From assembly GCF_002163835.1 (NCBI RefSeq), contig NZ_CP019331.1, positions 1,773,001 through 1,837,000 on the forward strand: a DNA stretch of 64,000 bases, written 5' to 3'. Under the pieces are notes generated by a model. That model did no database searches and was not told where the DNA came from. It worked only from the letters and a program-made list of their open reading frames with translations. Shown here piece by piece: positions 26,588 to 64,000 of the stretch. Within the stretch, counting starts at the first letter, position 1. Each line of letters starts with the position of its first letter. This DNA is from Polaribacter sp. SA4-10. Lineage in GTDB: Bacteria > Bacteroidota > Bacteroidia > Flavobacteriales > Flavobacteriaceae. The position numbers and the translations under genes were made by a program.

Positions 26588-26624
26588 ATTTATCTCGTCT
26601 TAATTATTTTAATTTAATTATTTA

Positions 26625-28103: not shown

Positions 28104-28133
28104 ATCTTTCGTATTCTATCTTTTTGTAATTAA

Positions 28134-28682: not shown

Positions 28683-28692
28683 TATCTATATA

Positions 28693-29220: not shown

Positions 29221-29222
29221 AA

Positions 29223-30686: not shown

Positions 30687-30708
30687 ATTTTTATAGCTTA
30701 AATTTTAA

Positions 30709-33765: not shown

Positions 33766-33857
33766 TTATACTTTTTTATTTAATGATTGAAAGATTTTAA
33801 AAATTGAATATCTCAATTTTATAGACCTTTTAATTTTTGAATCTTTTATTTCTTCAA
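33766..33857 (-). other. Gap between actA and actB with a small hairpin
   Basis: This 92-bp gap, long for this otherwise tight operon, holds a perfect 8-bp stem, AAAATTGA (33800-33807) with TCAATTTT (33813-33820). It lacks a T tract. It may influence the actA:actB ratio or be a processing site; nothing more can be said. Confidence 0.3.
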
Positions 33858-44700: not shown

Positions 44701-45612
44701 TTATGAATACTTTAAGTTTTCATTCTTATCCCAAAGCCCCCAATAAGCACCAACACTTCCTTCATCTCCAACTTTCCAAGACTCATCAAAAGAAGAAAAA
44801 TAAAAGGTTTCAATATTTTCATTTGAAGCCCAAACTTGAGTATTAATAAAATACTTAATTGCACTTTCATCTGATGAACCTGCCCCTCCTTCACTATCCC
44901 CTTGATTTGGCCAACCAGTTTCTGTAATAATTACTTTTTTACCTTGACTAACATCACTTGCTTGCTTAAACATTTTTTGCATGTGATTTAATGAGTAATC
45001 AATAGGACATCCTTCCCAAAAAGGATAACAATTTGCTAAAATAACATCACAAACTTCTACTAGTTCTGGATATGTTGAAAATTTATAATAGGCATCTACA
45101 TACCCAACTTCAACATTAGGTAATGCGTCTTTTACTCTATTTATATATGCTATTAGTTGTTCTATTGATAATTCATTTCTATACAAAACTTCATTCCCAA
45201 CAGCGGCAATATCTACACATCCTTCTTTCCCAAGTTTAATTAGTGCATCTATTTCTTCTTCATTCTTTTCTAAATCATTTCCTAACCAAGCACCAACCAT
45301 TGTTTTTAACCCATGTTTATAAGCAATTCTTGGTATGTGTTCATTTCCTTCTATGCAAGAAAAAGAACGAATCCATTTTGTGTATGGTTTTAGAATGTTC
45401 ATTCTTCTTTCTACCTGTTCTTCTGTAATAGTATCTCCTGGTTCTTGACCATCTTCATACATACTAAAACAGATTCCATGCATTCCTTTTTGAAGCCTTT
45501 CTTTCCAAAGAAGCCTTAATTCTATTGTAGAATATTTTTCAAAATTAATTCCTGATTGTTCTTCATCATTTACACCAGTGTAAATATGATATTCTTGGTT
45601 TCTATATGACAT
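44701..45612 (-). CDS. Cytosolic GH17 beta-1,3-glucanase/transglycosylase
   Basis: A 303-residue GH17-type TIM-barrel enzyme. Acid/base E141 lies in AAVGNEVLY and nucleophile E231 in ITETGWPNQG; FYFSSFDESWK near the end is also a family block. There is no signal peptide or membrane helix, so it should act in the cytosol on imported oligosaccharides, by hydrolysis or transfer of beta-1,3-glucosyl units. It is a close relative of the C-terminal domain of the neighbouring transporter fusion (same blocks RSFSC.EGNE, CDVILANCYPFWEG, FDESWKV), only three bp away, so the two probably arose by duplication. It is the last gene of the PUL. Confidence 0.85.
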   Translation of the reverse strand: MSYRNQEYHIYTGVNDEEQSGINFEKYSTIELRLLWKERLQKGMHGICFSMYEDGQEPGDTITEEQVERRMNILKPYTKWIRSFSCIEGNEHIPRIAYKHGLKTMVGAWLGNDLEKNEEEIDALIKLGKEGCVDIAAVGNEVLYRNELSIEQLIAYINRVKDALPNVEVGYVDAYYKFSTYPELVEVCDVILANCYPFWEGCPIDYSLNHMQKMFKQASDVSQGKKVIITETGWPNQGDSEGGAGSSDESAIKYFINTQVWASNENIETFYFSSFDESWKVGDEGSVGAYWGLWDKNENLKYS

Positions 45613-45615
45613 TTA

Positions 45616-47964
45616 CTAATATTTTAATTTTTCGTTTTTATCCCAAATTCCCCAACGAGCTCCTAACTCTCCTTCAATACGCACTTTCCATGATTCATCG
45701 AAAGAAGAGAAATGAAATATTTCTATATTCTTAGCAGTTGCCCATTCTTGAGTTTGAATAAAGTATCTCATAGCATTTAATTGAGATGGATGTGCATCAT
45801 CAACAGTTTGCCCTTGACTTGGCCAACCTGTTTCAGCAATTATAATTTTCTTCCCTTTTGATATTTGTTTCGTAATTTCATACATTTCTCTTAAATGTGT
45901 TAATGAATCTTCAATACCAAATCCTTCCCAAAAAGGATAACAGTTCGCTAAAATAACATCACAAGCATTTACTAATTCTGGACGCTTATAATATTCATAA
46001 TAAGTATCTACATAACCAACTGGTATCTCTAAACCTGCCAACGCTTCTTTTACCCTATTAATATATTCTATAAGCTCTTTCTCTGTTATTTCTCCACGAA
46101 GTAATACCTCATTACCAACAGCAGCAATATCAACTTTACCAGACTTAGCAAGTGCAATCAACTTGTTAATTTCTCTTTCATTTCGTTCTTTATCATCACT
46201 AATCCAAGCACCAACTATTGATTTTAGTCCTTTATCATGAGCAACTTTTGGTATTAATTCATTTCCTTCTACACATGAAAACGATCTCACCCATTTTGTA
46301 TAAGGTGAAATAATATCCATACGTATACGTATTTGTGATTCAGAAAGAATATCATTTATGTCCTGACCTTCAACATAAGGGCTAAAGCAAAGTCCATGTG
46401 TTTTATTCTTCAATTTTTCTTTGAATAATCCTTTTACTTCGGATAAAGTTTTGTCTGTAAAATTAATTTCAGTGAAATTTTCAAGTTTTAAATTACTATT
46501 CGAGATTGAAGTTAAATGACCCGCTCCATAAGCGGAAGACGCCTTTTTATTTTTCTTTTTTCGTTTTGCCAATTCTGCACTTATTTCTAAAGCTTTTTCC
46601 TCTGTATGATCATAATTACGCATAATCCACATTGCTGTAAGTGTACCAACTATTGGTAAACCAGAGTAGAATATTCTTATTCCTGTAATTGAAGCTTCTG
46701 TATTTTCTGTATCCGGTACAAACCCAACTAACGCCATAATAGCTCCTGTTGCTAAGCCTGCAAATGCAAAACCAAATTTCACCATCAACCAATAGATAGC
46801 ACCAAAGACACCTTCTCTTCTTTTACCTGTATTTAGCTCATCGATATCTATAACATCTGAAGTCATAGACATCATTAGTGTAAATAAACTTCCAATCCCA
46901 AAAGAGAAAAAGGGCAATGCAAATAAAAACATATAGGGTTTACCAGGGATAAATAAGAACCAAAGCATAATATATCCTAAAATAGAAATACCTTGTGAAA
47001 CTAAAAAAGCATTCTTTTTACCCATTGTTTTAGATATCTTAGCTACTATAGGTATTACCATAAAAGTTGTTGCTAAAGCCCCTATACTTCCTAATAATGT
47101 AGGCCAAAGACCTGCAGCTCCTGCATCACCATTAAATAAATAATAGACCACAATAAAAAATGAAAAACCAGCAACAACATTAAAAGCATTAAAAATTAAA
47201 AAGGTTGAGTAACATAATTTTCTAAAAACTGGAATCTTGAAAGCTTCTTTAAAATTTTCTAAAATCTGTTTTAAACTTCCTCCCAATGTCTTTAAGGTTA
47301 AAGGCGTTAAACTTTCATCATCCTTTGTTGACTTACTTTTTATAAAAAAAGCAGGTACCATTGCTAAAAGAGCACAAATAATAGCTACCCAAACACCTAA
47401 AGTTCTTGTCGTATCGGTTGTTGTACCAAACCAACTATCATCATACATTACCACCCAAAACCAAGGTGCAATAACCCAAGCCCATTGCCCTATTGACTGC
47501 GCAACTGCCATAATATTTGTACGTTCGTGAAAGTCGTCACTCATTTCATACCCCATAGCTACGTAAGGCACAGAAAAAATAGTAAGTCCTAAATAAAAAA
47601 GTAAGGACCATATTAAAAAGTATGTGAAATTATAACTTACACCATCTTCTATATATAATTGCCATAAAAAGGAAAATGCGATACCCATAATGAGGGCTCC
47701 TAAGAGCACATATTGTCTACGTCTGCCCCAAATAGATCTTGTATTGTCAGAAATAAATCCCATTATTGGATCTGTAAAGGAATCAAAAAGACGGGGAAGA
47801 AAAAATAAAATCCCCCACATCAAAGTTGATAAACCATAGTCTTGAATTAAAACTACCATAAAAATACCCATGGCAGCTGGAAACATTTGATTTGCTAACA
47901 TTCCTAATCCGAAAGCAATTTTTTGTCCCATAGGAACTTTAGAAGACGTATTTACTTTAGACAT
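45616..47964 (-). CDS. GPH-family sugar symporter fused to a C-terminal GH17 domain
   Basis: A 782-residue fusion in one uninterrupted frame. Residues 1-450 form a 12-helix transporter of the glycoside-pentoside-hexuronide:cation symporter family (DSFTDPIMGFISDNTRSIWG at 61-80, and the cytoplasmic loop DIDELNTGKRREGVFGAIYW). A basic, low-complexity linker (KRKKKNKK, 467-474) leads to a GH17 domain (about 500-782) with acid/base E619 (AAVGNEVLL) and nucleophile E711 (IAETGWPSQG). Because GPH proteins have a cytoplasmic C-terminus, the enzyme should sit on the cytosolic face of the pore. Import and processing of beta-1,3-glucan oligomers would thus be joined. It lies five bp after GH30. Confidence 0.88.
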   Translation of the reverse strand: MSKVNTSSKVPMGQKIAFGLGMLANQMFPAAMGIFMVVLIQDYGLSTLMWGILFFLPRLFDSFTDPIMGFISDNTRSIWGRRRQYVLLGALIMGIAFSFLWQLYIEDGVSYNFTYFLIWSLLFYLGLTIFSVPYVAMGYEMSDDFHERTNIMAVAQSIGQWAWVIAPWFWVVMYDDSWFGTTTDTTRTLGVWVAIICALLAMVPAFFIKSKSTKDDESLTPLTLKTLGGSLKQILENFKEAFKIPVFRKLCYSTFLIFNAFNVVAGFSFFIVVYYLFNGDAGAAGLWPTLLGSIGALATTFMVIPIVAKISKTMGKKNAFLVSQGISILGYIMLWFLFIPGKPYMFLFALPFFSFGIGSLFTLMMSMTSDVIDIDELNTGKRREGVFGAIYWLMVKFGFAFAGLATGAIMALVGFVPDTENTEASITGIRIFYSGLPIVGTLTAMWIMRNYDHTEEKALEISAELAKRKKKNKKASSAYGAGHLTSISNSNLKLENFTEINFTDKTLSEVKGLFKEKLKNKTHGLCFSPYVEGQDINDILSESQIRIRMDIISPYTKWVRSFSCVEGNELIPKVAHDKGLKSIVGAWISDDKERNEREINKLIALAKSGKVDIAAVGNEVLLRGEITEKELIEYINRVKEALAGLEIPVGYVDTYYEYYKRPELVNACDVILANCYPFWEGFGIEDSLTHLREMYEITKQISKGKKIIIAETGWPSQGQTVDDAHPSQLNAMRYFIQTQEWATAKNIEIFHFSSFDESWKVRIEGELGARWGIWDKNEKLKY

Positions 47965-47969
47965 AGTTT

Positions 47970-49463
47970 TTAGTTTTTAGTGGTTGATACCATAATTGTT
48001 TGTATTGCTTGTGCATTTATATTTACAAGTGTTTCTTTTTCTCCTAAGAGTAATTTGAAACTCTTTTTTGTTTTCCCTTCATTAAAAACAATCACAGCAA
48101 TAGATCCATCTATATTTTGTGCAGCAGTAACTTGTAATTCTTTGTCAGAATTTTCTAAACCAATTACTTTTGCTTCTGGTCTTATGTATTTACTAAAATG
48201 AGACATTGTGTAATAAAGTGGCGTAAAATACACTTCATCTGTTTCTGGATTGACAATTACAGGAGCTATACACCAATTTTTAAACCAGTTAGGACCTCCT
48301 TTTGTATCTAAAACCATGTTCCAATCTACCCAACCATCTACCCAATTATTTAGACAACCAATTATATCTCTTGCATATCTATTTACTGGAGCATATTTTG
48401 GATGTAAATGCTTGTCTTTTTCAGGAGCCCAATCCCAACCCCAATCTGTAGCTTCTTTTTTCCAATACCAAGCATCATCTTGCCAAACAGGAACTTGAGA
48501 ATCTACGCAAGCTTCTGCTTGAATTAAGTATTTGTTTGGAGCTTTATGATGCGCATATTGTAATTCTTCAGAAAAAACCTCGTACGTACTAGCATACCAA
48601 TGTATTGCTGTACCATCAAAATATTTTGAAGATTCTTCATTTAGAAATTGTGAATCTACCCATTCCTTTAAATGTTCTCTATTTTGGTCATACCCTAAAA
48701 TTTTAACATCATGTTTGTCTTTTTCTAATTGTGGTCCTAAATAATTCTGAACAAAATTTGTCATTTCATCTGGAGAAAAATGCATGCTTTCCCAATTATT
48801 ACCATTACCCATAGGTTCGTTTTCTACGGTAAAACCCCAAATATCAATTCCTTCTTGTTTGTAAGCATCTACATATTTTGAAAAGAATAATGCCCAAGTA
48901 TCATAATATTTGGGTAATAATTTTCCACCAACCCATTTATTATTATCCTTCATCCAAGGAGCAGCGGTCCAAGGTGAACCAAATATTTTAAATCCATCTT
49001 TAGATGCTTTCATGGCATCTTTTATCATCGGAATTAAATCATCTTTATCATCTTTAATTGTAAAATGTTCTAAATTGACATCATCTGCCACAGGAGAATA
49101 TGAATACTGGCCTAAAGAAAAATCACAAGAGTTCATGTGTGTTCTTGTAAGCGAATAATTTGCGCCTTCTTCTGAGAAGTAAGCTTGTATAATAGTATCT
49201 CTATTTTTTTTACTTATTTTATTTAGTAAATAAGCGGATGCTTCTGTAAAAGCTCCTCCAAAACCAGTAATATTTTGAAATTGTTCATTAGGATTCAGCT
49301 TAATTGTTGAGGTATTTTCATCAGAAAAAAATGCAGTTATTTTTGTTAGTTTATTCCCACTTTCTGAAGTTTCATAAACAGCTACTACCAATTTATTATC
49401 AACTTGATTACAACTCATTATCACTAATAAAAAAAGGATTGAAAAAAAATAGTTCGTTCTCAT
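47970..49463 (-). CDS. GH30 lipoprotein (probable beta-1,6-glucanase/glucosidase)
   Basis: A 497-residue enzyme of GH30 with a lipoprotein signal (VIMSC, C18). The (beta/alpha)8 core has acid/base E216 in FTVENEPMGN and nucleophile E318 in LIQAEACVDS; the side beta-domain ends the protein. In laminarin PULs this family removes beta-1,6-linked glucose branches, which would open the main chain to GH16 and GH17 enzymes. That substrate is inferred from neighbours; GH30 also includes glucosylceramidases and xylanases. It is in the same operon, 11 bp after the GH17 lipoprotein. Confidence 0.85.
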   Translation of the reverse strand: MRTNYFFSILFLLVIMSCNQVDNKLVVAVYETSESGNKLTKITAFFSDENTSTIKLNPNEQFQNITGFGGAFTEASAYLLNKISKKNRDTIIQAYFSEEGANYSLTRTHMNSCDFSLGQYSYSPVADDVNLEHFTIKDDKDDLIPMIKDAMKASKDGFKIFGSPWTAAPWMKDNNKWVGGKLLPKYYDTWALFFSKYVDAYKQEGIDIWGFTVENEPMGNGNNWESMHFSPDEMTNFVQNYLGPQLEKDKHDVKILGYDQNREHLKEWVDSQFLNEESSKYFDGTAIHWYASTYEVFSEELQYAHHKAPNKYLIQAEACVDSQVPVWQDDAWYWKKEATDWGWDWAPEKDKHLHPKYAPVNRYARDIIGCLNNWVDGWVDWNMVLDTKGGPNWFKNWCIAPVIVNPETDEVYFTPLYYTMSHFSKYIRPEAKVIGLENSDKELQVTAAQNIDGSIAVIVFNEGKTKKSFKLLLGEKETLVNINAQAIQTIMVSTTKN

Positions 49464-49474
49464 TGTGTTAATTT

Positions 49475-50761
49475 TTATCTATTATAGTCTGTATTAGGTA
49501 CTAAAACAAGCTTCATAAGTGTTTCTTTATCACCATTAAATGTCTTTATGATTGGCGCTCCATTTCTCGTTAAACCTTTAAAATTTCCATTATCAACTAA
49601 ATTCCAAATAGGATACTTAGCTGCTCCTTTTAAAGTGAATAATCCAAAGTGATTTTCAGAACCATTTGCATTTTTAGCATCTTTCCATTGTTCATCAAAA
49701 GCTTCAAAATAAAAACAAGAAATCCCTTCTTTATTCGTCCATTCTCTTAAATGGTTATAATAAAGTCCTTGCTTATATTCATCTGTTGCTCTAGAACCAT
49801 TCTTGCCATAATGACCGCTAGAAATAGTTGCCCAACCCGTTTCACCAATATGAATTGTTTTAGTAGCATCGATACTTTTTACATAATCAGAAACATCTTT
49901 AAATTGCCTTTTAGCAAACTCTAAAGCACGTAACATTGCATTATCTATTTTTTCTTTGTCTGATAAATGCTGTTCACTATCTGGCACTTTCCAAAAACCA
50001 GGATTGTAATGAGAGTTATGATACGCATACGTATGCATAGAAACATAATCTACAGCCTTAATTAAGTCTTCTAAATCTTTTACTCTATAACTTGGATCTC
50101 CTCCACCCCAAGAAGTATAATCATCTGAACATGTAATCCATAAATCTTTAGAAAGCTTTCCATCTTTCTTTAAATTTTGAAGATGATTTACCCATTTTAA
50201 AATAACATTTGGTCTCACAAAGTAACTAGTTGCCCATCTAATCATTGCTTCATTACCAACAGCAATAACTTTTACAATGTCTGGATATTTGTTTGCTAAA
50301 GCTACTGCTCTATCAATTTCACCTTCATTTTGTTCGCTTTCAGTTTCATGATTAGGTTCTTTGTCTGTCCAAGCATTTACACAATCTATCCAAGCACCTA
50401 ACATAACGTACATTTCAAAGCTTGAGTCTTCTTTTTTAAGCTGACTTATTGCTTCTAGAATATTTGCTGCATGAGGTAACTTTGGTTGTACATTATAGGT
50501 TCTAATAATGCGAATACCCATAGCGTGCATCAACTTTAAATCTTCTTTTAACTGTGGAATTGTAGGTTGATTATCTTCTCTTGATTTTTCTCTATATCCA
50601 CCATAAGAAATGGCTAAATATTCTGGGTTTCCTAAAATTTTGGCTGCTGTCATTTCTTCTTTAATTTCTTTCTTTACTGATTTATTTTCCTTTTTAGAGC
50701 TACATCCAAAACCAATAAACAATACTAAAATCGTTACTAAAATTTTAAATTTGAAATTCAT
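49475..50761 (-). CDS. GH17 lipoprotein, endo-beta-1,3-glucanase type
   Basis: A 428-residue GH17-like enzyme with lipoprotein signal (IGFGC, C20). Acid/base E171 lies in AVGNEAM and nucleophile E307 in IGETGWA; other blocks are IRIIRTYNVQPK and FYFEAFDEQWK. I start at the ATG at 50761 (MNFKFKILV); the longer frame runs into the GH3 gene and lacks a signal. It is more distant from the two cytosolic GH17 domains of this locus than they are from each other. A role on the outer side of the cell, cutting debranched laminarin, fits its lipid anchor. It follows GH3 by 23 bp. Confidence 0.82.
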   Translation of the reverse strand: MNFKFKILVTILVLFIGFGCSSKKENKSVKKEIKEEMTAAKILGNPEYLAISYGGYREKSREDNQPTIPQLKEDLKLMHAMGIRIIRTYNVQPKLPHAANILEAISQLKKEDSSFEMYVMLGAWIDCVNAWTDKEPNHETESEQNEGEIDRAVALANKYPDIVKVIAVGNEAMIRWATSYFVRPNVILKWVNHLQNLKKDGKLSKDLWITCSDDYTSWGGGDPSYRVKDLEDLIKAVDYVSMHTYAYHNSHYNPGFWKVPDSEQHLSDKEKIDNAMLRALEFAKRQFKDVSDYVKSIDATKTIHIGETGWATISSGHYGKNGSRATDEYKQGLYYNHLREWTNKEGISCFYFEAFDEQWKDAKNANGSENHFGLFTLKGAAKYPIWNLVDNGNFKGLTRNGAPIIKTFNGDKETLMKLVLVPNTDYNR

Positions 50762-50784
50762 ATTCTTACTCTTTTTACTATTAT

Positions 50785-52596
50785 TTAATACTTTAAACCA
50801 TATCCAAAAGGATACAATGGTTTTATGCTTTTGTCCCAAAAATTAGGTCCATATTTTCCTTTTAAATCTTTTACTGTTTTTGGCCAAGAATGAGGCAATT
50901 TTCCAGAGAAATTAAAATCACCAAATAAAACTTCCGCAATTCCATCTCCTTCAGAACCTGGTAACCAAGCTGCAACAAATGCATCTGATTTTTTTATTAG
51001 TTTAGTTACCACTAAAGGTCTTCCAGAAATTAAAACAACAATCGTTTTAATTCCTTTTTCTGAATACGTTTTTATATATTTTTTATGTTCTTTGGTAAGT
51101 GTTAGTTTTCTAATATTTGATTCATGACCAATATCGCCAAAGAATTCAGCATAAGGAGTTTCGCCAACAATTATAATTGCAACATCTGCATCAAAATGGT
51201 TTCCTGTTGCCTCTTTATCATAAACAACATCACCTTTTGATTGCTTTTTAATTCCCTCTAAAATAGTGGTAGCTCCTTTATAATTTTCTAAAGTTCCTTG
51301 CCAATTAATTGTCCAACCTCCAGATTGTAAACCAGCATTATTTGCATGTTCACCCACCACCACAATTTTCTTTGTTTCTTTTGATAAAGGCAAAATAGTA
51401 TGCTCGTTTTTTAATAAAACTAAAGATTCTCTTACCGCTTGTTTTGCTTTATTCCTGTGCGTCTTACTTCCTATTTCAGAAACTAATGTTGCATCTGGAA
51501 ATGGATTTTTAAATAAGCCCAACCTAAACTTCTGTCTTAAAATTCTTTTTACTGCGTCGTTAATTCTTACCTCAGAAACATAACTAGAATCAACAGCCTT
51601 CTTTAAATTATTTTGAAAATAATCTAAATCACCATCAACAGCCATTATCATATCTACACCAGCATTAATAATATTATTTCTACCAAATCTTGAATACCCT
51701 TTCCAATCAGAAACCACAATACCATCAAACTTCATCTTCTGCTTTAGAGTATCTATGAGATATACTTTATTAGCATGCATTGGTTTCCTTTTTAAAGTAT
51801 TGAATGATGCCATTACAGCTCCAACTTTTTCATTTACAGCAACTTTATAAGGAGGCATTAATCTTTTGTTTATTTCGTCATTAGATAGCGATGTTTCTCC
51901 TCCTTCCACACCAAATTCTGTAGCGCCATCTCCAATAAAATGTTTGGCTGTTGCCATCACCGTTTTAGCATCGGATAAGTCTCCTTGATGCCCTTTTATA
52001 GAAGCTTTGGTTAAAATAGAGGTTAACTCAGTACTTTCTGAAAATGCTTCATAAACTCTCCCCCATTTTTCATTATAAGGAATTGCAACACATGGTGAAA
52101 AAACCCAATTAAAACCTGTTGCTTGTGCTTCTATAGCAGTAATTGCTGCAGCTTCTTCAACTAATTTTGGGTTTGCAGTTGCTCCTAAACCAATATTATG
52201 TGGAAAAATGGTTGCTCCATTAAACGTATTTTGTCCATGAATTGCATCAACACCAAACAACAACGGAATACCCAATCGTGTAGAAAGTGCTTGCTTTTGT
52301 AATTTGATAAATTTCTGCTGCCATTCTTTAGCAGTTTCTCCAGGATTTACTCCTTGTGTATGAATAACAGCACCTATAAACTTAGTAGCAACATCATTTT
52401 TAGAAATATCCCAAAAATGTCTTACTTGAGACATTTGACCAATTTTCTCTTCTAAAGTCATTAACTTTAAAAGAGAATCTACTTTTTTCTCAATAATAAT
52501 TTCTTTATCTACTTTAGTTTCTACAGCTTTTTTGCAACTAAAAAGAGTAAATAATAAAGGAATAAAAAATTTATACTTATGAAAGCTATTGGTCAT
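50785..52596 (-). CDS. GH3 beta-glucosidase lipoprotein
   Basis: A 603-residue GH3 enzyme with lipoprotein signal (LFSC, C21). The N-terminal barrel has the KHFIGDG motif (219-224) and the nucleophile D297 in GIVVSDWKG; the C-terminal alpha/beta sandwich includes VVVGEHANNAGLQSGGWTINWQG. There is no FN3 C-terminal domain, and the protein is shorter than the 750-residue three-domain type. It most likely releases glucose from the ends of beta-1,3-glucan oligomers in the periplasm or at the surface. It follows the GH149-type gene by nine bp. Confidence 0.9.
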   Translation of the reverse strand: MTNSFHKYKFFIPLLFTLFSCKKAVETKVDKEIIIEKKVDSLLKLMTLEEKIGQMSQVRHFWDISKNDVATKFIGAVIHTQGVNPGETAKEWQQKFIKLQKQALSTRLGIPLLFGVDAIHGQNTFNGATIFPHNIGLGATANPKLVEEAAAITAIEAQATGFNWVFSPCVAIPYNEKWGRVYEAFSESTELTSILTKASIKGHQGDLSDAKTVMATAKHFIGDGATEFGVEGGETSLSNDEINKRLMPPYKVAVNEKVGAVMASFNTLKRKPMHANKVYLIDTLKQKMKFDGIVVSDWKGYSRFGRNNIINAGVDMIMAVDGDLDYFQNNLKKAVDSSYVSEVRINDAVKRILRQKFRLGLFKNPFPDATLVSEIGSKTHRNKAKQAVRESLVLLKNEHTILPLSKETKKIVVVGEHANNAGLQSGGWTINWQGTLENYKGATTILEGIKKQSKGDVVYDKEATGNHFDADVAIIIVGETPYAEFFGDIGHESNIRKLTLTKEHKKYIKTYSEKGIKTIVVLISGRPLVVTKLIKKSDAFVAAWLPGSEGDGIAEVLFGDFNFSGKLPHSWPKTVKDLKGKYGPNFWDKSIKPLYPFGYGLKY

Positions 52597-52605
52597 TAAT
52601 CATTG

Positions 52606-55600
52606 TTATTTTTTTACTGAAACTTCAATTTTATTTATTTCTCCTGTTCTTTCAAAAATCATTTTTGAAATATTTGTATCAAGTATTAAATCTTTTACTT
52701 CTTCAATACGTGTGTCAGTAAAAAATATTTTTATACCTTCTTCTTTATAATTTTTATAGACAATTGGTACTTGACAATAAGTAAAACAAAGTGAACCTTC
52801 TTTTAAATCAATTGATTTTTCTTCTTTGCTAATCGCAGTATATTTAAAAGTTTTTGGAGCTTTAATAAACTCACTTTCTCTTAATAATCTCGGATTAAAA
52901 TTAATTTTTCCTTCTTTTACAAAAACACCTAATTCTCCTATTCTACTCAACACATCTTCTTTAACCTGACCTGTCATTCCTGGTTGTTGTGCTCCTTTTC
53001 CTCCTGGTGTGTGAGAATAAGGATCTGTTGGAAATGCGCCATATAATTCTGGCGATTTATGAACACCAATACCTGCTTGAATTTCATAATAATGATCTAA
53101 TAGTTGACCAATTACAGCTTCATCTTCATTATTTTTTACCGCTAACAAGCAATTTTCTTGAGCCGCTAATAATAATTTTGAAACCATGTGCCAATAAATA
53201 GAACCCAAACCTTCATAACCAAAGAAAGTTCCTGAACGACCTGTAAATGCTTTGTGATTAAAAACTTCTTCAAAAGTTTCCAGTAACAAACTAGATTCGT
53301 TTTCTACTAAATCTGAATAGGTTGCTGGTAATTCTTCAAAAGCTTCTTTTAAGCTATTTGCATTATTAAAGTTTGCATTAAAATGATAATTATCTAAGAC
53401 ATCTTTGTTAATGATTTGAGTATTTCCATCATTAACCAATTGTGTTAATAATTTAGAGTTTTTTACAGCCGCTTTAGAAATTACATTTTTCTTATCAAAA
53501 CGTGGTAAATCTTTATTTGGATATAAAATATAACTGTATTGATCTTCTCTAAACAACGCACTAGCTTTCATTGCGTCTAAAACTTTTAAAGCTTCTTTTG
53601 GTGATAAATATTCGGCACTTAAAACAGCAACTTGCCCTTCTAACATTTCTGGTAAATAAGAAATAGATACCTCTTTATCATTCTCTATCGTCATTAAATT
53701 ATACGAATGGTATAAATTATCTGAACGTTTATTTGCTTTAATCGTATGCTCTAAATACTGCTTTGTAATTGTAAAGAATGCTAATAATTCTGTTTTAGAA
53801 ATTGTACTTCTATCACTAGAAAATCCGTTTTCATAAATTGCAGTTCTAAATACACTTCCTGCTTCACCTAAACCATCTAAAACTGTTTTTCTTTCTGTAT
53901 CTGAAACACTTCCTGAAAGGATCTCTTTATTTTGGTTAAAAGTTGCCACAACTTCATTAAAAAACGTTGCCAATTCTGATGAAATCTCAACCTCTTCGGT
54001 TGCAGATTTAGTCACTACTTTTTCGAAGAAATTTATAAATCGATTTAAGTAATTTAACGTTACCATAGAAACACCATTACCAACTAAAGCGTTGTTAGCG
54101 TCATTCCATTCCGGACGTTGTGTATTCATCCAAATACCTCCTTCTGGTATAAAATTAGATACTTTTGCTAAAACAGTTGCTAATAATTTTTCGATTAAAT
54201 TTACTTTATAAATAAAGAAATTTTCATCTCTTAGTAAAGCGCCATCTGCTCCTAATTCCTCTCTCTTTTGATGAATTTTAGCATCTAATTCATGGTCAAA
54301 ATCAATAGTATCTTTAGGGTTTAAAAGTATACTTTTGTAGTCTTTTATTTTATAAGGCACATTTGCATACACAAAAATGTCTTCAGAAAAACGTTTTTCT
54401 AATTGATTAGGATAATGGTTTTCTATAAATTCTAAGAATTTTAATAAGTAAATTATTTGATGATCTCCCCAATAACCAATGTAAGACCAAGGGTCATTTT
54501 CTTCAATAATTTCCCAATCGAAACCATCTTTTGTTACTCTGTAAGGATTGTAACCATCAAAAGTTGTTGCATTTAAAAACTTATGAATCATACTTTCTAT
54601 AAACTCAGGATATGAATGTGCTAATGTTTCCCAATTCTGGAAAATATCACGCCAATTACCTTCGTAATCTAAAATTTTAGAACCATCAATTTCATTTTTT
54701 GTATTGATAGAAAACTTGTTCCAAGGTCTACTTGGATCTCCATGTCTTCTACTAAATTTTAATGGTAAATATTCAAAACAAAGTCTTTTAAAGTTTTTAT
54801 CTTCATCTTTCTCTGCAATTTCAAGAATTGTATTTAATGTAAATAACTTTGGTAACTCATTTAACAATTCCTCTTTTTTCTTAATGACTTTTTTATTTGC
54901 CTTTGCAATGTATTTTATAAAATCTTCTTTTTCAATTTTATAATCATCATCAAAAGTACCGCCTCTCATTAAGTTGAAAAGTGTATTTGCAAAGTGTCTT
55001 GTATTCACTAAAGGATCGTTTGTTACTTGCAAACCATCTGCAGCACCCGTTAAAGCAATTAATTTTTTAGTTCCTAATTCAATATCTTCTTGAATACTTT
55101 TAGCTAAATTTTTATCATTTAGAATTGCTTTAGAAATTCTTTGAATATCTCCAATAGTTTGATTTACATTCGCAATAAAACTCCATTCTTTGGCTTCGTT
55201 TGCTGCTAAGTTTAAATCAGTACTAATAAAATAAGCGCCTTTTTCTGCTTTTACATCTACTTCTTGATGCAGTTCTTTTCCTCGTCTAAAATTATCTAAT
55301 TGTAATGATGATAATAAATACGTTGGATTTTCAACACCTAAAGACCAAACTATATTTGCTTTTAAAGCTTCACTTGGTTCTGCTTTATCAACAATAATTG
55401 CACTTAAGGCATAAATACCTAAACCAGCTTCTGCTTGTAATTCACTTTTCTTGTATGCGTCTACTAAATTACTTCGAGAGTTTTGTAAATCTGTTTCTAC
55501 ATCCGAAGGAAGAATATTTTGTAAACCGTCTAAAAATGTAATTTGTATTTTATCTGAAGAATTATTAATTAATGTTGATTTTTTTACAAAACCAAATTTA

Positions 55601-56064
55601 TCCGTAGAACTCCATTGATATCTGAAGGTTACTTCTAAATCTTCATTAACTTCTTCGAAAATAACTTTGTTTCCAAAACTATTTTTATATAAATTTTGTC
55701 TTGTTTTATATAATCCAATTTGTCTTTGAGAGAAAGGTTCCCATAAATAAATATTTCCATTTTTAGAAACTTGAAAAATAGACTTACTACCAGTTACATC
55801 TGCAGCTTCTGTAATTTTATCATCTGTATAATAAGGAAAAAGTGAATACTCACTATTCTTTCTACCAGCTGTAAGCCCTCCATTACTAGAAATAAACATC
55901 CAATGATTTGAGTCTGAAACAATACTCATAAAAAATGGTCTCATTTCATTACTGTTCGCAATTTTATAATAAACTTCATTATCAAAATTTATCATTTCTC
56001 CTTTCACTTCTTGCGTTTGAAAGTCTGCTTTATTTTTTCCTAAAAAAATGGTCTTATTTGTCAT
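52606..56064 (-). CDS. GH149-type beta-1,3-oligoglucan phosphorylase
   Basis: A 1,152-residue protein without signal peptide or membrane helix. Length and overall pattern (N-terminal beta-sandwich; central alpha/alpha-barrel with GNWRDIFQNWE, GFDWEIIEENDPWSYIGYWGDHQIIYLLKF and MNTQRPEWNDANNALVGNGVSMV; C-terminal ALLDHY...PGMTGQVKED-like end) fit the GH149 phosphorylase family. Its characterised members cleave beta-1,3-gluco-oligosaccharides with phosphate to give glucose-1-phosphate, saving ATP. Related GH94 and GH161 enzymes differ in length. The assignment is from memory of the family and from the PUL context; the catalytic aspartate was not identified. Confidence 0.78.
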   Translation of the reverse strand: MTNKTIFLGKNKADFQTQEVKGEMINFDNEVYYKIANSNEMRPFFMSIVSDSNHWMFISSNGGLTAGRKNSEYSLFPYYTDDKITEAADVTGSKSIFQVSKNGNIYLWEPFSQRQIGLYKTRQNLYKNSFGNKVIFEEVNEDLEVTFRYQWSSTDKFGFVKKSTLINNSSDKIQITFLDGLQNILPSDVETDLQNSRSNLVDAYKKSELQAEAGLGIYALSAIIVDKAEPSEALKANIVWSLGVENPTYLLSSLQLDNFRRGKELHQEVDVKAEKGAYFISTDLNLAANEAKEWSFIANVNQTIGDIQRISKAILNDKNLAKSIQEDIELGTKKLIALTGAADGLQVTNDPLVNTRHFANTLFNLMRGGTFDDDYKIEKEDFIKYIAKANKKVIKKKEELLNELPKLFTLNTILEIAEKDEDKNFKRLCFEYLPLKFSRRHGDPSRPWNKFSINTKNEIDGSKILDYEGNWRDIFQNWETLAHSYPEFIESMIHKFLNATTFDGYNPYRVTKDGFDWEIIEENDPWSYIGYWGDHQIIYLLKFLEFIENHYPNQLEKRFSEDIFVYANVPYKIKDYKSILLNPKDTIDFDHELDAKIHQKREELGADGALLRDENFFIYKVNLIEKLLATVLAKVSNFIPEGGIWMNTQRPEWNDANNALVGNGVSMVTLNYLNRFINFFEKVVTKSATEEVEISSELATFFNEVVATFNQNKEILSGSVSDTERKTVLDGLGEAGSVFRTAIYENGFSSDRSTISKTELLAFFTITKQYLEHTIKANKRSDNLYHSYNLMTIENDKEVSISYLPEMLEGQVAVLSAEYLSPKEALKVLDAMKASALFREDQYSYILYPNKDLPRFDKKNVISKAAVKNSKLLTQLVNDGNTQIINKDVLDNYHFNANFNNANSLKEAFEELPATYSDLVENESSLLLETFEEVFNHKAFTGRSGTFFGYEGLGSIYWHMVSKLLLAAQENCLLAVKNNEDEAVIGQLLDHYYEIQAGIGVHKSPELYGAFPTDPYSHTPGGKGAQQPGMTGQVKEDVLSRIGELGVFVKEGKINFNPRLLRESEFIKAPKTFKYTAISKEEKSIDLKEGSLCFTYCQVPIVYKNYKEEGIKIFFTDTRIEEVKDLILDTNISKMIFERTGEINKIEVSVKK

Positions 56065-56210: not shown

Positions 56211-58511
56211 TTATGGATTTATTATTAACGAAATATCATCTAAATACAATGTTGAAGTACAACCTGCAACGCCTCCACAAATAGCAACAAATTCCATAGT
56301 TATACCACCACTAACATCACCACCTTGCATAGCTCCTGTTACCGTATAAGTAGTTGTAAAAGTTTGCCATGTACCTGTTGGGGTCACATCAAAAGTTTCA
56401 ACTTGACTCGCACCGTTTGTAGCTTCCACAAATGATTGTATTGAGACCGCACCAGACTCTCCTGTTAGTGATCCTTTATAGCTAAATGTAACTTGTACTT
56501 TATCTCCTACTACTATTGAGCCAGCAGCTTTTCTTTCCTGCTTCAACGTTGGATTTAATCCATTAGGAGCACTTGCAAATAACTTCACACACCAATCTCC
56601 TGTTTGTGCTTCCGTATTGTCTAAAGTAGCTGTTCCACCGTTATCATATAAAGTCCAACCTTCAAGATCTCCAGATTCAAAACCACCATTACTTGCAATA
56701 TCTCCATCAGCAGGAATATCGCCACCGCCATTTCCACCGCCACTTGTTCTTTCAAAAAGCTTAAGATCATCAAAGTAATATGTATTGGTACTTGCTGACT
56801 TGTTTAAATCAAAAATTAATACAATTCTGTCATATTTATTATCATGATTCGTGCTAAAATTAAAAGTTAACTCTTCCCATTCATTAGTTTTGGTAGTTGT
56901 TAAATCAATTTCAGTATTAAGACCTGGGTCAGCAATTGATTCAAGTTTTAATAACACGCTATAACCTGGAATAGCCGAATACACCTTGATTTTAAAACCA
57001 CCATTAGCAGTTAAATCAAATTTAGTATTAAAATCAATTTGATTGTTATCCCAAGGGTTAACTCCGCCTTTTGTCACTTTACCAACAAAACAAGAATTGT
57101 TTACTGTATTATCAGAATCTGGATTTGCTACATACTCAAAAGTAGCATTATCATTTCTTATATTTGCGGTTTGGTCTGACATAAAAGTTACATTTAGATC
57201 TGTTGCACTCATAGATTCTGTAGTTTCTGAATCACAAGCACCTGGTTCATATACTTCTACATTTCTGGTTGCAACAGCTGTATTACCATCTGAATCTATA
57301 ACCGTGTAAGTTACTGCATAAGTTCCTGGAGTATTCGTATCTACAGTATCACCACCAATTACAATAGTATTTGTAACATCACCATCTTCGGTATCTGAAG
57401 CAGTTGCTCCTTGTTCTGTATACGTATCTCCTTGTGCTAAACGAATACTTGCGTCTCCAATTAATGTAATTACAGGTACATCACCTAATGAAACTTCTAT
57501 ACTTCTAGTAGCTACTGTTATGTTTCCGTCTGAATCTACAACGGTATAAGTAACTTCATAAGTTGCTAAAGTATCAACATCTACAGTATCACCTCCAATT
57601 ACAATGGCACCAGAAATATCGCCATCTTCAGTATCTGAAGCAGTTGCTCCTTGTTCTGTATATGCATCTCCCTTTGTTAAAGAAATTGTTTCATCTCCAA
57701 TTAATGTGATCACTGGAGCATCTCCTAAAGATATTTGAATAATATCATCCATATAAAAAGTTCCTGCTGTGGTACCAGCGCCGTCTACAAAAACAACTAG
57801 TTTAGAGTAGCTAGCAATATCGGAAAACGTAAACTGTAACTCTTCCCATCCAGAACCTGTATGACTTGCCAAAACTTCTGTAAAAGCAGTTCCTTCTTCT
57901 AATTTTACTAAAATAGTTACTGCCGCATCCGACCAGAAATTCATTTTAATCGTATTGTTTGTTGTTAAATCAATTGCTTTTTCTAATTCAAAAAACAGGC
58001 CTTCATAAGTAGCCCCGCTATTTGTAATAGAAGCTACCATAGAAGATACATCGTTTGACCCTCCTGGTGCAGGGTTCTCTAGTAATTCATAGGCTGCACC
58101 ATCAAAAGCTGTTGCACTATAATTTACATTATCGTTATCAAAAGTCATTGGTAAACCCAAAGGCAACGGCATGTTTATAACAATGATATCTTCAAAGTAA
58201 GAGATTGCTCCTGCCTCGTTCATTGCTTTTAATATAACGGTATAGGTACCGTTAGTATAACTTTTAATAGGATCAATTTCTGAAGAAGTTGATGCGGGTA
58301 CTACTGGTATTTCATCTCCAAAATCCCAAGAATAGGTAGTTGCATTCTCAGAAATATTAATAAATTCTACCGTACCTGTATTTTCATTTAAAGTATACGT
58401 AAAACCTGAAGTAATCATAGGTAGTTTAACAACGTCTTCTGAACAACCTACGTATGTTATTGCTATAAGAAAGAAAGCAATAAGTTTACTGTTTTTTAAT
58501 ACTAATTTCAT
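56211..58511 (-). CDS. PKD/DUF5011/CBM-like surface glycan-binding lipoprotein
   Basis: A 766-residue lipoprotein (TYVGC, C23) built only of binding-type domains: PKD (about 35-112, TTYSWDFGD), a jelly-roll module (116-270, ending FVDGAGTTAGTFYMDDI), two DUF5011/HYR-like Ig repeats (275-345 and 350-420, both with AYTEQGATASDTEDGD or a near copy), a second jelly-roll module (425-590, ending NTYYFDDLKLFE), a Gly-rich linker and a CBM4/9-like domain (605-766, NGGFESGDLEGWTLY). There are no catalytic motifs. It most likely binds laminarin on the cell surface. It lies between GH16 (35 bp) and the GH149-type gene. Confidence 0.8.
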   Translation of the reverse strand: MKLVLKNSKLIAFFLIAITYVGCSEDVVKLPMITSGFTYTLNENTGTVEFINISENATTYSWDFGDEIPVVPASTSSEIDPIKSYTNGTYTVILKAMNEAGAISYFEDIIVINMPLPLGLPMTFDNDNVNYSATAFDGAAYELLENPAPGGSNDVSSMVASITNSGATYEGLFFELEKAIDLTTNNTIKMNFWSDAAVTILVKLEEGTAFTEVLASHTGSGWEELQFTFSDIASYSKLVVFVDGAGTTAGTFYMDDIIQISLGDAPVITLIGDETISLTKGDAYTEQGATASDTEDGDISGAIVIGGDTVDVDTLATYEVTYTVVDSDGNITVATRSIEVSLGDVPVITLIGDASIRLAQGDTYTEQGATASDTEDGDVTNTIVIGGDTVDTNTPGTYAVTYTVIDSDGNTAVATRNVEVYEPGACDSETTESMSATDLNVTFMSDQTANIRNDNATFEYVANPDSDNTVNNSCFVGKVTKGGVNPWDNNQIDFNTKFDLTANGGFKIKVYSAIPGYSVLLKLESIADPGLNTEIDLTTTKTNEWEELTFNFSTNHDNKYDRIVLIFDLNKSASTNTYYFDDLKLFERTSGGGNGGGDIPADGDIASNGGFESGDLEGWTLYDNGGTATLDNTEAQTGDWCVKLFASAPNGLNPTLKQERKAAGSIVVGDKVQVTFSYKGSLTGESGAVSIQSFVEATNGASQVETFDVTPTGTWQTFTTTYTVTGAMQGGDVSGGITMEFVAICGGVAGCTSTLYLDDISLIINP

Positions 58512-58546: not shown

Positions 58547-59404
58547 TTATTTGTTATATACTCTTACGTAATCTATGAGCATTTTTTGTGGAAAAACAGT
58601 TTCTTCATTTGGTGCGCCTATAAAATCTCCACCTACTGCTAGATTGATAATAATATAGAAAGGTTGGTCAAATACCCAAGTTCCTTTTTCTTCCACCTGT
58701 TGGCGTGTAATTTGATTGTATAAAACATCATCAACATAATAATTAATATATTCTGGAGCCCACTCTATTCCAAAAACATGGAAACCAGTATCGAAACGAT
58801 CGTTTTCTAGTGCATAACTTTTAGTAATCGCATTGCCTGCAGCATAACCAGGACCATGAACACTGCCATGAACAACTGTTGGATCTTGTCCTCGGTATTC
58901 CATGATATCTATTTCACCACAATTTGGCCAAACTTCAGTACCGTTATTTCCATCACCACAATTAGCTCCTAAAAGCCAAAATGCTGGCCACATTCCTTGA
59001 CCTGTTGGTAATTGTATGCGCGCTTCAAAACGACCATAAGCTTGTTCTTTTAAACCTTTGGTTAAAATTCTACTAGAGGTATAATCAGAACCATTATAGT
59101 CTTCTTTAAGAGCTTTAATAATTAATATACCATTCTGTACAGAAACATTTTCTGTGCGACTTGTATAAAATTGTTCTTCATTATTACCCCATCCATTGGT
59201 ACCATTCCCAATATCAAAAGTCCAAATATCACCATCTATAAAATCATCTGTATCAAATTCATCAGACAACACAATATTTTTAAATTCTGCAACGGTTTGT
59301 GTTTCATCTGGATTACAACCAATCAATATAAAAAGGATTCCTAAAAAGAGCGTTTTTAATAAAACTACATTTTTACCCAATAAGATTTTATTTGTTTTGT
59401 TCAT
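58547..59404 (-). CDS. GH16 laminarinase lipoprotein
   Basis: A 285-residue GH16 endo-beta-1,3-glucanase with lipoprotein signal (LIGC, C30). The catalytic motif EIDIMEYRG has nucleophile E164 and acid/base E169 with the beta-bulge methionine form seen in laminarinases; GMWPAFWLLG and INLAVGGDFIG are further family blocks. There are no extra binding domains. It should make the first cuts in laminarin at the cell surface, giving oligosaccharides for import. It lies 20 bp after the second glycan-binding gene. Confidence 0.93.
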   Translation of the reverse strand: MNKTNKILLGKNVVLLKTLFLGILFILIGCNPDETQTVAEFKNIVLSDEFDTDDFIDGDIWTFDIGNGTNGWGNNEEQFYTSRTENVSVQNGILIIKALKEDYNGSDYTSSRILTKGLKEQAYGRFEARIQLPTGQGMWPAFWLLGANCGDGNNGTEVWPNCGEIDIMEYRGQDPTVVHGSVHGPGYAAGNAITKSYALENDRFDTGFHVFGIEWAPEYINYYVDDVLYNQITRQQVEEKGTWVFDQPFYIIINLAVGGDFIGAPNEETVFPQKMLIDYVRVYNK

Positions 59405-59424: not shown

Positions 59425-60888
59425 TTACTTATAGAAATATGTATTATCCATATAAAAAGTTTCTATCTGAGAAGACTTTATGTTTTCTATAATAATAATA
59501 TTAATTGCTGATTTATTTAATCCAGTTTCTGAAGTTGGTCTGATTGGAATCTTTATTGATTGCCATTCACTTGCAACTAATGAAGATGCAGGATAAACAA
59601 TTGGAGCTCTTGGATCTAATTGATAATTTGATCCAATACGGTTTTGTTGAAAAGTACCATCTACAGACTTCAGTGTAATTAAAATATCTATATTAACAAG
59701 GTCTGCTGGTAATTCTAACATTAAAAGATCTACACTATAATGCGTCATCTCTGTAATATCTATCGCTTCTGTAAGCTGAGTTCCAACAAAATTAAAGTTC
59801 GTGTAATTTAAAATATTCTGACCATCTATGATCGTTTCTCCTCCCAATGTTGTTTGGTAAGGTTGCCAATAGCCATTATGAAAATCTACAGGAACATTCG
59901 TGTAGGTATCACTAAATATTGAAATCACATTACTATCACTTTCTTGAGGAGTAGGTGCAAGCGGAAAAGCTCCAGAAGCAGAAATTGTTAAAGACCCTTT
60001 CGCTTTAACTCCAGCAATAGAAGCTGTTATTTTTGCTATACCAGGACCAACGATAGATACAATACCCGTTTCGCTAACTCTAACTACCTCTATATCACTT
60101 GACTCAAAGTCAAAATACATAGGAGCCGTAATCGTTGTTTGATTGAACCCAGAAGGCAAATTAAATGTTTGTGTTAAACCATAATCAGACAAGTTAAAAG
60201 AGTTTCCTACAAAATTTCCTTCCTCTGTATCTTCTCCATTTGCCATTTCCGGTTGTGGTTGGCCAAGGTTACCTAATTTTTCAAACTTTAAATCATCTAT
60301 CCAAAAAGTAAAACCTAGACCATTAATTCCTGCTACTGCATATCTTAACATCCCTCTTTCATTAATCAATTTAGAGGGGTCTGGAATTGGAATTATATAC
60401 TTTACCCAATTGGTAGATAAATCTACATTCGTAATAGTGGCTAAATATTTATTTTCACCAAAATCTTCTCCAAAACCTATTTCTCCAATAGTTCCTGTTT
60501 GTGATCCCTTGGCCCAAAAAGTTAGGGCATCATATCCTGATAAATTACGACCTTCACCATCAATTCTTAAAATTGCCCCTGCATAATTCCCTAAGGGATC
60601 TGTATCCTTTGGCACATCAATACGCATAGAAGATTCACTTTCATACCCCTCATTAGTATCTACAGACCATGCTGTTGGTTTTGATCCAACTGGATTGTTT
60701 GCGTCTGAACCGTAAGGGAAATAAAAATCACTTCCCATTCCTATAAAATTATCTGTGTATATCTCTCCAGTTGTTCCGAAGTTTGTGAATTCAACATTTT
60801 CTGAAAGTTCTCTCTCACAACTAGCAATCGATAACATTAAAATTAGTAAAAATGTTAATTTTAGATATTTGTTTTTTATTGTATTCAT
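59425..60888 (-). CDS. Glycan-binding lipoprotein with Big_2 domain
   Basis: A 487-residue lipoprotein (SIASC, C24) with no catalytic motif. Residues about 35-205 form a galactose-binding-like module (DALTFWAKGSQ, ending GFTFWIDDLKFE). Residues about 225-305 are a Big_2 Ig-like domain (SETGIVSIVGPGIAKITAS). Residues about 320-487 form a second jelly-roll module ending SSQIETFYMDNTYFYK. This layout fits a SusE-like or other surface glycan-binding protein of the PUL. It lies between the glycosidase-barrel gene (17 bp) and GH16. Binding of laminarin is inferred from place. Confidence 0.72.
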   Translation of the reverse strand: MNTIKNKYLKLTFLLILMLSIASCERELSENVEFTNFGTTGEIYTDNFIGMGSDFYFPYGSDANNPVGSKPTAWSVDTNEGYESESSMRIDVPKDTDPLGNYAGAILRIDGEGRNLSGYDALTFWAKGSQTGTIGEIGFGEDFGENKYLATITNVDLSTNWVKYIIPIPDPSKLINERGMLRYAVAGINGLGFTFWIDDLKFEKLGNLGQPQPEMANGEDTEEGNFVGNSFNLSDYGLTQTFNLPSGFNQTTITAPMYFDFESSDIEVVRVSETGIVSIVGPGIAKITASIAGVKAKGSLTISASGAFPLAPTPQESDSNVISIFSDTYTNVPVDFHNGYWQPYQTTLGGETIIDGQNILNYTNFNFVGTQLTEAIDITEMTHYSVDLLMLELPADLVNIDILITLKSVDGTFQQNRIGSNYQLDPRAPIVYPASSLVASEWQSIKIPIRPTSETGLNKSAINIIIIENIKSSQIETFYMDNTYFYK

Positions 60889-63900: not shown

Positions 63901-64000
63901 GCATAATTGGTACCAATTGGAACATAATCCCAATTCATACCATTAATCATAAAATCTTTACCATTTACAACAAGTTTCATTCCTTGTTCATTATCAATTA
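60906..64000 (-). CDS. TIM-barrel glycosidase joined to an outer-membrane-like beta-barrel (5' end outside window)
   Basis: The frame stays open to the window edge: before the in-frame ATG at 63980 it continues with IDNEQG, so the true start, probably with a signal peptide, lies beyond 64000. The visible 1,024 residues (numbered from that ATG) begin with a clan GH-A-like TIM barrel (about 1-370; acid/base E136 in LLGNENNYGLFW, nucleophile E241 in LFTEFGADSF), like GH2/GH5-type enzymes. Residues about 385-1024 are strand-rich and aromatic, ending WEIRTYIHINIGK, as in outer-membrane barrels. A beta-glucanase tethered in the outer membrane is the best guess; the substrate is inferred from the PUL. 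Confidence 0.72.
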   Translation of the reverse strand, partial: IDNEQGMKLVVNGKDFMINGMNWDYVPIGTNYAYSLWNQPEEVIKGALDEEMGLLKNMGVNTIRVYTGIQPKWITYIYETYGIYTMLNHSFGRYGLTLNGVWTPVTDYRDPETKKFLLSEATELANTFKNTKGLLLFLLGNENNYGLFWAGAETEDFPDEKEKQKAVGEKRGRPMFKLMNDAAIKMKSLDASHPVAICNGDVLFIDIIAEECPDIDIYGTNMYRGKSFGDAFKVVKDKLNKPILFTEFGADSFNALTNQEDQKMQAFFMVENWKEIYQNAAGLGKSNNAIGGFTFQFSDGWWKLGQTKNLDVHDNGASWSNGGYYLDTKNGSNNMNEEWFGICAKGPTNSNGLYTLYPRAAYYALKEAHEINPYLSGINLNKVTNHFENIQLMDAVLRARGDKAALNGGGDKIRLSNLRAEFTTFNTGGSLITTPSTANEQQSSYPNQLGFDHMQSYFIGIEGNPAPNMRANVNFNVLGNVAENPIDEIFYENRGRSYTVNTDQGNVQITDPNRVQVYNSEFEWNADNFDMRGFYRTGHYHWGDEGDFFGLYPEANYGPNLDTYNGEILGIEIDGKGALNGLKAAFGPQLWWGANPTALLKYSRNFGKWGVTGIYHRDLDTDIKIDPETGRRVLDANQLRSGIIPAFPTERFALAIERSFGNFKFNVGALWSGSPLNGSTFQDARGTSGNYIIYKDKINSEDNWGSKAKITYQKGLFNWYLQSAYMGLVANGGADLTKTFTGWKLKDNGSGNQVNILTGATYTISNLQIAPNFIYQKPLIGAMPNDVGGTGRLRNVIDDPFAVRNNRETLGMEWLFTYDPTPGTWMYEWDNDRTEDAVFAMNLGFVYRHLPTTQDAHIGFLADRSFFAFPTAAPAEDLWEISSRVVSKVSPSFGFIGNFFYGNGQANGNDERLIKRFGGDVRMILNKLKVTAQAKFNDWGPFDYHKDFNLTFPTQLMLDVSTTLGKPGWFILPNTKVGLRGTWRSLDQYSPRYSPSIVEEFATSPTISPVGFPNGSEWEIRTYIHINIGK

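Follow-up and report, generated by a model that had tools for sequence, protein, structure and literature searches.

We analyzed a stretch of 64,000 nucleotides from Polaribacter sp. SA4-10 (contig NZ_CP019331.1, positions 1,773,001 to 1,837,000 of the forward strand; the window hereafter), relying throughout on sequence comparison and predicted models, and focused on a single frame on its minus strand, running from ATG to stop at 45616..47964, that codes for a 782-amino acid fusion of a GPH symporter with a glycoside hydrolase of family GH17. Within this frame a transporter part (residues 1-448; 46621..47964, minus strand) is followed by a basic linker (residues ~449-495, beginning AKRKKKNKK; 46480..46620, minus strand) and a GH17 domain (residues ~496-782; 45619..46479, minus strand), and 3 bp past the stop codon of the fusion a second, free GH17 gene begins (44701..45612, minus strand), encoding a protein of 303 amino acids in which no signal peptide was seen.

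The Pfam profile MFS_2 (PF13347) matched residues 18-452 of the fusion with 210 bits (cut-off 27), and that of GH17 (PF00332) matched its C-terminal end only, residues 705-782, with 47.5 bits (cut-off 28.2), while a sequence search of the PDB placed MelB on residues 10-464 and the GH17 beta-1,3-glucanosyltransferase RmBgt17A on residues 545-769 (2.7e-29). An AlphaFold2 model made with 53 aligned sequences (mean predicted local distance difference test score, pLDDT, of 80) has transmembrane (TM) helices up to residue 448 and a beta/alpha barrel from ~507, its weak stretches including the linker at 471-480 and the beta8-alpha8 loop at 759-771. When this model was searched with Foldseek, it matched MelB (TMt 0.86) and, as the best GH17 among the 50 matches listed, RmBgt17A (TMt 0.83). 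The fused domain is assigned to GH17 by its profile match above the cut-off, its barrel fold and its two catalytic glutamates, E619 and E711. A preliminary description of this DNA had read the locus as a 12-helix GPH symporter joined to a complete GH17 domain with these two glutamates, and its coordinates, strand, length and domain order all proved right. Measured in 90 fusions, the spacing between TM12 and the first barrel strand is approximately 48-82 residues, with a median of 75.

A hydropathy scan of the fusion yielded 12 TM segments and no hydrophobic segment between TM12 and the GH17 domain. Lysines and arginines together numbered 25 in the even loops, which lie inside if the N-terminus does, versus 2 in the odd loops, and these counts, along with the homology to MelB, predict that both ends of the transporter part face the cytosol, as had been proposed from the outset, with the GH17 domain on that side as well. 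MelB (PDB 9old, 7l16 and 4m64) shares its fold, its 12 helices and its cation-site acids with the window transporter: the cation-site acids D61 and D65 align with D55 and D59 of MelB, K396 aligns with K377, and all three are invariant across 53 aligned sequences, the window's included. MelB differs in having no enzyme domain and in its sugar-binding positions, which in the fusion are occupied by Q26, S131, Q156 and T362, none of them as in MelB. Taken together, the loop charges, the kept acids and the changed sugar positions suit a symporter that is driven by a cation, carries a sugar other than that of MelB and has its C-terminus in the cytosol. Since TIGR00792, the NCBI model of a GPH subfamily, matched over its full profile length with 189.8 bits, under its curated cut-off of 231.35, we call the transporter GPH-like without counting it as a certified member, and cation-coupled sugar uptake by this half of the protein is a prediction from its family. 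The protein as a whole is most likely an inner-membrane sugar pump carrying a sugar-cutting enzyme on its cytosolic side.

Fusions of this kind have been in print since 2018, and the window protein is a further member. FbGH17B (FORMB_24740, AOR29491.1) of Formosa sp. Hel1_33_131 was named by Unfried et al. (2018, PMC6246565) and consists of an N-terminal 12-helix MFS transporter and a C-terminal GH17 domain; its GH17 part released glucose from debranched laminarin and was inactive on branched laminarin, and the authors proposed coupled hydrolysis and uptake, with cleavage "simultaneous" with transport, a wording that does not itself fix the membrane side, and described the fusion as common in marine Flavobacteriia. 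The preliminary description was thus mistaken in holding the fusion to be undescribed. The window protein shares with FbGH17B its N-terminal 12-TM MFS part, its C-terminal GH17 domain and a laminarin polysaccharide utilization locus (PUL) with adjoining GH30 and GH17A genes (PMC6246565), the window's PUL also holding GH149. FbGH17B differs at position 622 (numbering of the window fusion), where it has Met (PMC11005184) and the window protein Leu; in our set, locus L124 (G123) combines Met622 with an FbGH17B-like gene order. A 2023 study reported GH17-MFS fusions for the majority of expressed variant-1 laminarin PULs, which included gammaproteobacterial loci (PMC10108472), and the fusions of the SAR92, Luminiphilus and SAR86 metagenome-assembled genomes have the architecture of the window protein in another phylum.

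Fused and free GH17 domains

GH17 relatives were taken from named genomes (the best 80 of 444) and from sampled genomes of the family and the phylum. A tree built from 247 distinct GH17 domains has a branch, with a support of 99 in the Shimodaira-Hasegawa-like approximate likelihood ratio test (SH-aLRT), that separates all 147 free genes and one fused domain from the other 99 of the 100 fused domains, with no free gene on this second side; one of these 99 belongs to a gene cut by the contig start, which we relabelled as fused. We refer to the two sides as the free type (S) and the fused type (F). The same branch received a support of 99/99 in a 64-row tree, its rows part chosen and part random, and loci of the genus that were classed by best match agreed with the tree, four fused domains being F-type and six free ones S-type. 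By these trees, the fused and free GH17 domains are two old lineages, that is, paralogues. That the two GH17 genes arose by a recent tandem duplication was considered and rejected, as fused and free copies do not cluster by genome.

The two types differ near the active site, and their residues there were read against MlGH17B of Muricauda lutaonensis, an unfused and proven beta-1,6-forming transferase (PMC11005184, PMC13188888). The transferase triad of the MlGH17B kind comprises Tyr136, Trp191 and Glu192, and in the fused domain of the window it is incomplete, with Leu622, Trp679 and Glu680 at the aligned sites, whereas the free gene at 44701-45612, which belongs to the S clade, has Tyr144 and the Trp-Glu pair, as well as Gly282 and Tyr290. 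The free protein, 57% identical to the fused domain, is on these grounds probably a beta-1,3-glucanosyltransferase. Of the two activities that the preliminary description had allowed for the fused domain, cleavage or transglycosylation, cleavage is the better bet given Leu622 in place of Tyr136, and the transferase signature sits in the free gene downstream.

Across the two lineages, the catalytic E619 and E711 and the residues W679 and E680 are conserved in 99/99 F domains and, apart from one gap at E711, in 147/147 S domains. Position 622 is Leu in 65, Met in 13, Tyr in 8, His in 7 and another residue in 6 of the 99 F domains, and Tyr in 125 and Leu in 22 of the 147 S domains. Gly occupies position 762 in 136/147 S versus 5/99 F domains, and Tyr or Phe position 770 in 143/147 versus 0/99. 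By alignment, positions 762/763 of the fusion correspond to Gly274/Ser275 of MlGH17B, and Ser275 lies at the +1 subsite (PMC11005184). In the F type the Tyr linked to transglycosylation is mostly gone and the +1 loop is altered; the S type mostly retains the Tyr and the loop as they are in MlGH17B.

Two S-type proteins of exactly 295 amino acids fit the numbering of MlGH17B (E133, Y136, W191, E192, E223 and the 270-280 motif), for which reason we treat MlGH17B as S-type; standing beside an MFS gene and a GH30 gene, it matches the free gene of the window and not the fused domain. MlGH17B and FbGH17B, which are 53% identical, have been treated as positional counterparts with puzzlingly different activity (PMC13188888), and the GH17 tree suggests that they are instead paralogues. 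RmBgt17A from Rhizomucor miehei (PDB 4wtp, 4wtr and 4wts), the best GH17 match of the fused domain by model, among the 50 matches listed, and also by sequence, is a fungal single-domain protein and has Tyr102 where the fused domain has Leu. A third, distant GH17 type of ~310 amino acids, 24-33% identical to the F and S types (for example L005:13287-14240), directly follows the free GH17 gene in many loci and was not seen beside it in the window.

Distribution and history of the fusion

A full-length search of a 5.8-billion-protein set, in which 8000 candidates were scored, gave a best 120 matches that cover 89-100% of the fusion at 70-100% identity. The best 80 of 444 relatives, which make up the named-genome set and are biased towards full-length matches, have one fused frame in 77 loci and separate genes in 3. 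Altogether, fused frames were found in 95 loci, the window's included and a few repeating one assembly, and, with the exception of the one cut by the contig start (G124), every fusion counted was confirmed as a frame. In less biased samples the MFS-GH17 fusion is a minority form: it was present in 18 of the 100 family genomes that had a match (299 searched; 72 loci read, the other 28 matching at 3e-114 at best, weaker than the worst checked fusion at 1.2e-154), with one further gene cut by the contig end, in at least 15 of 36 matching genomes of the phylum (395 searched; 21 loci read, 15 judged from match ends and stops), and in at least 5 of 47 matching genomes of the genus (78 searched; 13 loci read, 34 judged from match ends and stops). 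The search for the spread of the domain order, which the preliminary description had suggested, found it in Bacteroidota and also in Burkholderiales (e.g., L058, L065 and L082). Long open frames with partial matches (813-1142 amino acids) were considered as further fusion types, but the ones that were fetched, L093 excepted, proved to consist of separate genes; open-frame lengths were therefore not used as proof of fusion.

The transporter tree has two clades, a main one of 90 fused and 36 unfused rows and a second one of 2 fused (L093 and L098) and 32 unfused rows, to which L162, found later than the tree, adds a third fused transporter. The fused or unfused label changes 17 times on this tree, and its well-supported branches force at least 12 of these changes. 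Both GH17 types occur together in 86 of the 93 main-clade fusion loci and in both second-clade loci; of the seven main-clade loci without both, five have at least 3 kb of downstream DNA. The GH17 domains of the second clade are F-type and fall at two separate points of the F tree (p = 0.0004 in the approximately unbiased (AU) test of a single clade), though L098 is a long branch whose place in this tree is less sure; the second transporter lineage thus probably gained the F domain twice. At L160:4384-6843 (minus strand) an S-type GH17 is fused independently to a main-clade transporter, with the start region of the free gene, MSFREER, still readable beyond an acidic linker roughly 40-50 residues long, and the idea that the free type is never fused was accordingly dropped. 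Most simply, these trees would be read as a single old fusion followed by many losses of the domain, with F domains captured twice by a different GPH transporter and an S-type domain newly fused once.

Among the loci read there was no free F-type gene (0/147 free genes on the F side of the tree), nor any F-type gene beside their unfused transporters. A domain-only search of the 5.8-billion-protein set, with a length filter that drops whole fusions and 8000 candidates scored, returned a best 120 that fall closer to F in 104 cases and to S in 16. Many of these F matches either show a linker or the tail of TM12 or come from short contigs, but P0139, P0143, P0182 and P0195, on contigs of at least 38 kb, have no visible TM12 tail or linker, P0143 beginning in linker-like sequence, and the statement that F is never free thus holds for the loci read only. 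Within the open-licence papers whose text was searched, neither the F/S split nor repeated fusion was seen described; searches of that literature for transporter fusions with carbohydrate-active enzymes under other terms found no papers.

The laminarin locus

The fusion lies in a laminarin locus, in keeping with the beta-1,3-glucan setting that had been suggested for it. In the order of transcription, a Y_Y_Y/LuxR-type regulator, SusC, SusD, a PKD protein and a GH16 lie upstream of the window, and within it follow a TIM-barrel protein, a CBM30-like protein, GH16, a protein with PKD and carbohydrate-binding module (CBM) domains, GH149, GH3, GH17A, GH30, the fusion and the free GH17, all on the minus strand. 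GH30 (47970..49463; PF02055, 260 bits), by its family a debranching beta-1,6-glucosidase, has a lipoprotein-like N-terminus, as do the GH17 endo-laminarinase of the FbGH17A/MlGH17A type (49475..50839; PF00332, 32.7 bits), the true start of which is probably an internal Met, and the GH3 beta-glucosidase (50785..52596; profile matches and sequence); the signals, read by eye, are MSC for GH30, GFGC for GH17A and FSC for GH3. The GH149 beta-1,3-oligosaccharide phosphorylase (52606..56064), a protein of 1152 amino acids with no signal peptide seen and no Pfam match, was identified through PDB 6hq6 (1628 bits over 19-1150). Given these lipoprotein-like enzymes versus the signal-free GH149 and free GH17, the fusion would bridge the enzymes working outside the cytosol and those within it. 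GH149 lies inside the fetched DNA in 71 of the 95 fusion loci.

Further upstream are a PKD/Ig-like/CBM4_9 surface protein (56211..58511; Pfam), a GH16 (58547..59404; PF00722, 93.7 bits), a CBM30-like lipoprotein (59425..60888; PF21582, 24.2 bits, under the cut-off of 27) and a GH2/GH158-like TIM barrel with a C-terminal part rich in beta-strands (60906..63980; PF02836 and Foldseek), whose gene probably starts further upstream. In P0241 the protein has 1056 amino acids, and the best 120 matches preserve it over its whole length at 72-100% identity. It combines an N-terminal TIM barrel (PF02836), to which the GH157/GH158 laminarinases are nearest in Foldseek, a weak indication at a pLDDT of 58, with ~500 C-terminal residues of long antiparallel strands that, in the same model, resemble an outer-membrane beta-barrel. 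This member of the PUL could join an enzyme to a porin. The gene that immediately follows the free GH17, at 41310-44606 (minus strand), encodes an FG-GAP/ASPIC (CRTAC-like) protein and holds this place in several relatives too. Elsewhere in the window, a run of respiratory genes at 25565-35165 (minus strand) encodes cytochromes c, a molybdopterin/Fe-S protein, NrfD and a COX2-like protein, and its order presumably indicates alternative complex III.

Proposed cleavage at the transporter exit

The reading that we prefer, with a probability of roughly 0.6, is that imported laminari-oligosaccharides are cut at the cytosolic exit of their transporter before the transferase and GH149 act on the products. 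The lipoproteins GH30, GH17A and GH3 would debranch and cut laminarin outside the cytosol, and the cation-coupled symporter would take in short beta-1,3-gluco-oligosaccharides, which the GH17 domain on its cytosolic C-terminus would cut on arrival, keeping the local substrate low and thereby reducing back-flux. The products would pass to two soluble enzymes encoded nearby, the free GH17, a probable transferase, and GH149, which would make glucose-1-phosphate. MlGH17A, an enzyme of the periplasmic type, yields products with a degree of polymerization (DP) of 2-4 (PMC13188888), and MlGH17B is poor on substrates below DP 5 (PMC11005184, PMC13188888), which suggests that the S type leaves a gap for short imported oligosaccharides; the F type, with its changed +1 region and reported release of glucose, could fill it. 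The presence of F domains on the main clade and twice on the second clade, together with one S-type fusion, makes tethering look selected. The fusion, its catalytic residues, the two GH17 lineages, the gene order and the predicted topology were computed; the substrate of the transporter, the coupling of cutting to transport, which the preliminary description had also suggested and which is a natural hypothesis here, and the benefit of the fusion are what we infer.

Several observations weigh against this reading. Tyr at position 622 is not a clean marker, being present in 8/99 F and absent in 22/147 S domains. Many relatives do without the fusion, and the minimum of 12 label changes on the transporter tree implies that uptake can do without a tether; in six genus-mates (L179, L180, L181, L182, L187 and L189) an unfused transporter 73-82% identical to the window's has no GH17 of either the F or the S type next to it within the DNA fetched. 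Splitting to glucose by hydrolysis costs energy and looks wasteful where a phosphorylase is at hand, and the phosphorylase is not a universal partner, since GH149 was not seen in 15 of the 63 fusion loci with at least 6.5 kb of upstream DNA, 13 of the 15 being from Pseudomonadota.

The fused domain might alternatively be a beta-1,3-glucanosyltransferase like MlGH17B that lengthens or branches imported oligosaccharides at the pump exit; their size would trap them, and the phosphorylase would be supplied with substrate as MalP is by MalQ in maltose metabolism. In favour of this, F domains keep two of the three transfer-linked residues without exception (Trp679 and Glu680, 99/99), the identity to the free paralogue is 57%, and FbGH17B may have undetected transferase activity according to the authors of PMC11005184. 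We nevertheless consider a transferase unlikely, as the equivalent of Tyr136 is Leu in the window and Tyr in only 8/99 F domains, the +1 loop (762/763) and position 770 are unlike those of the transferase type, FbGH17B was reported to release glucose (PMC6246565), and the adjoining free gene already has the transferase signature. It is also rather improbable that import and cleavage are not coupled at all and that the fusion merely fixes an expression ratio and a membrane location, persisting because it is harmless: split relatives are indeed common in the same kind of PUL (68 unfused versus 92 fused transporters in the tree) and the label changes often, yet a neutral join should also come apart, and in the loci read 0/147 free genes fall on the F side; moreover, the F domain has conserved residues of its own and the fusion arose more than once.

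Two further explanations carry very little weight. That the GH17 domain is periplasmic and supplies the transporter with glucose as its cargo would be compatible with the "simultaneous" cleavage and transport of Unfried et al., a wording that leaves the side unspecified (PMC6246565), but it is highly improbable in view of the 12 TM segments, the strong positive-inside bias, the MelB-like fold and the lack of an extra TM segment before the GH17 domain in the hydropathy scan, and the lipoprotein-like GH17A, GH30 and GH3 can do the outside work. That a sequencing or assembly error joined two genes, which the preliminary description itself had named as fatal to its reading, is a negligible prospect: although many relatives carry separate genes, the genome is a single contig and the best 120 matches cover 89-100% of the protein, so that the frame is no erroneous join, and the fused frames in 95 loci and the conserved F lineage refute the error for this locus.

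A more tentative reading, to which we give a rather low probability, is that F-type GH17 is a distinct, obligately tethered lineage, active only at the cytosolic mouth of the symporter, where it would take the product directly and pull transport forward, much like group translocation but by hydrolysis. In that case selection would have put GH17 on such transporters about four times, counting the main clade, the two captures by the second lineage and the one S-type fusion.

What is gained here is a way to read the fusion, the fusion itself being already published. Laminarin is a major marine carbon store, and the fusion sits where its fragments enter the cell. Two GH17 lineages, usually found side by side in one locus, would explain the difference in activity between FbGH17B and MlGH17B, and the split tells which GH17 gene is to be compared with which. 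With no free F gene in the loci read, despite the frequent change between fused and unfused transporters, the effect of a tether at the exit on flux becomes directly testable.

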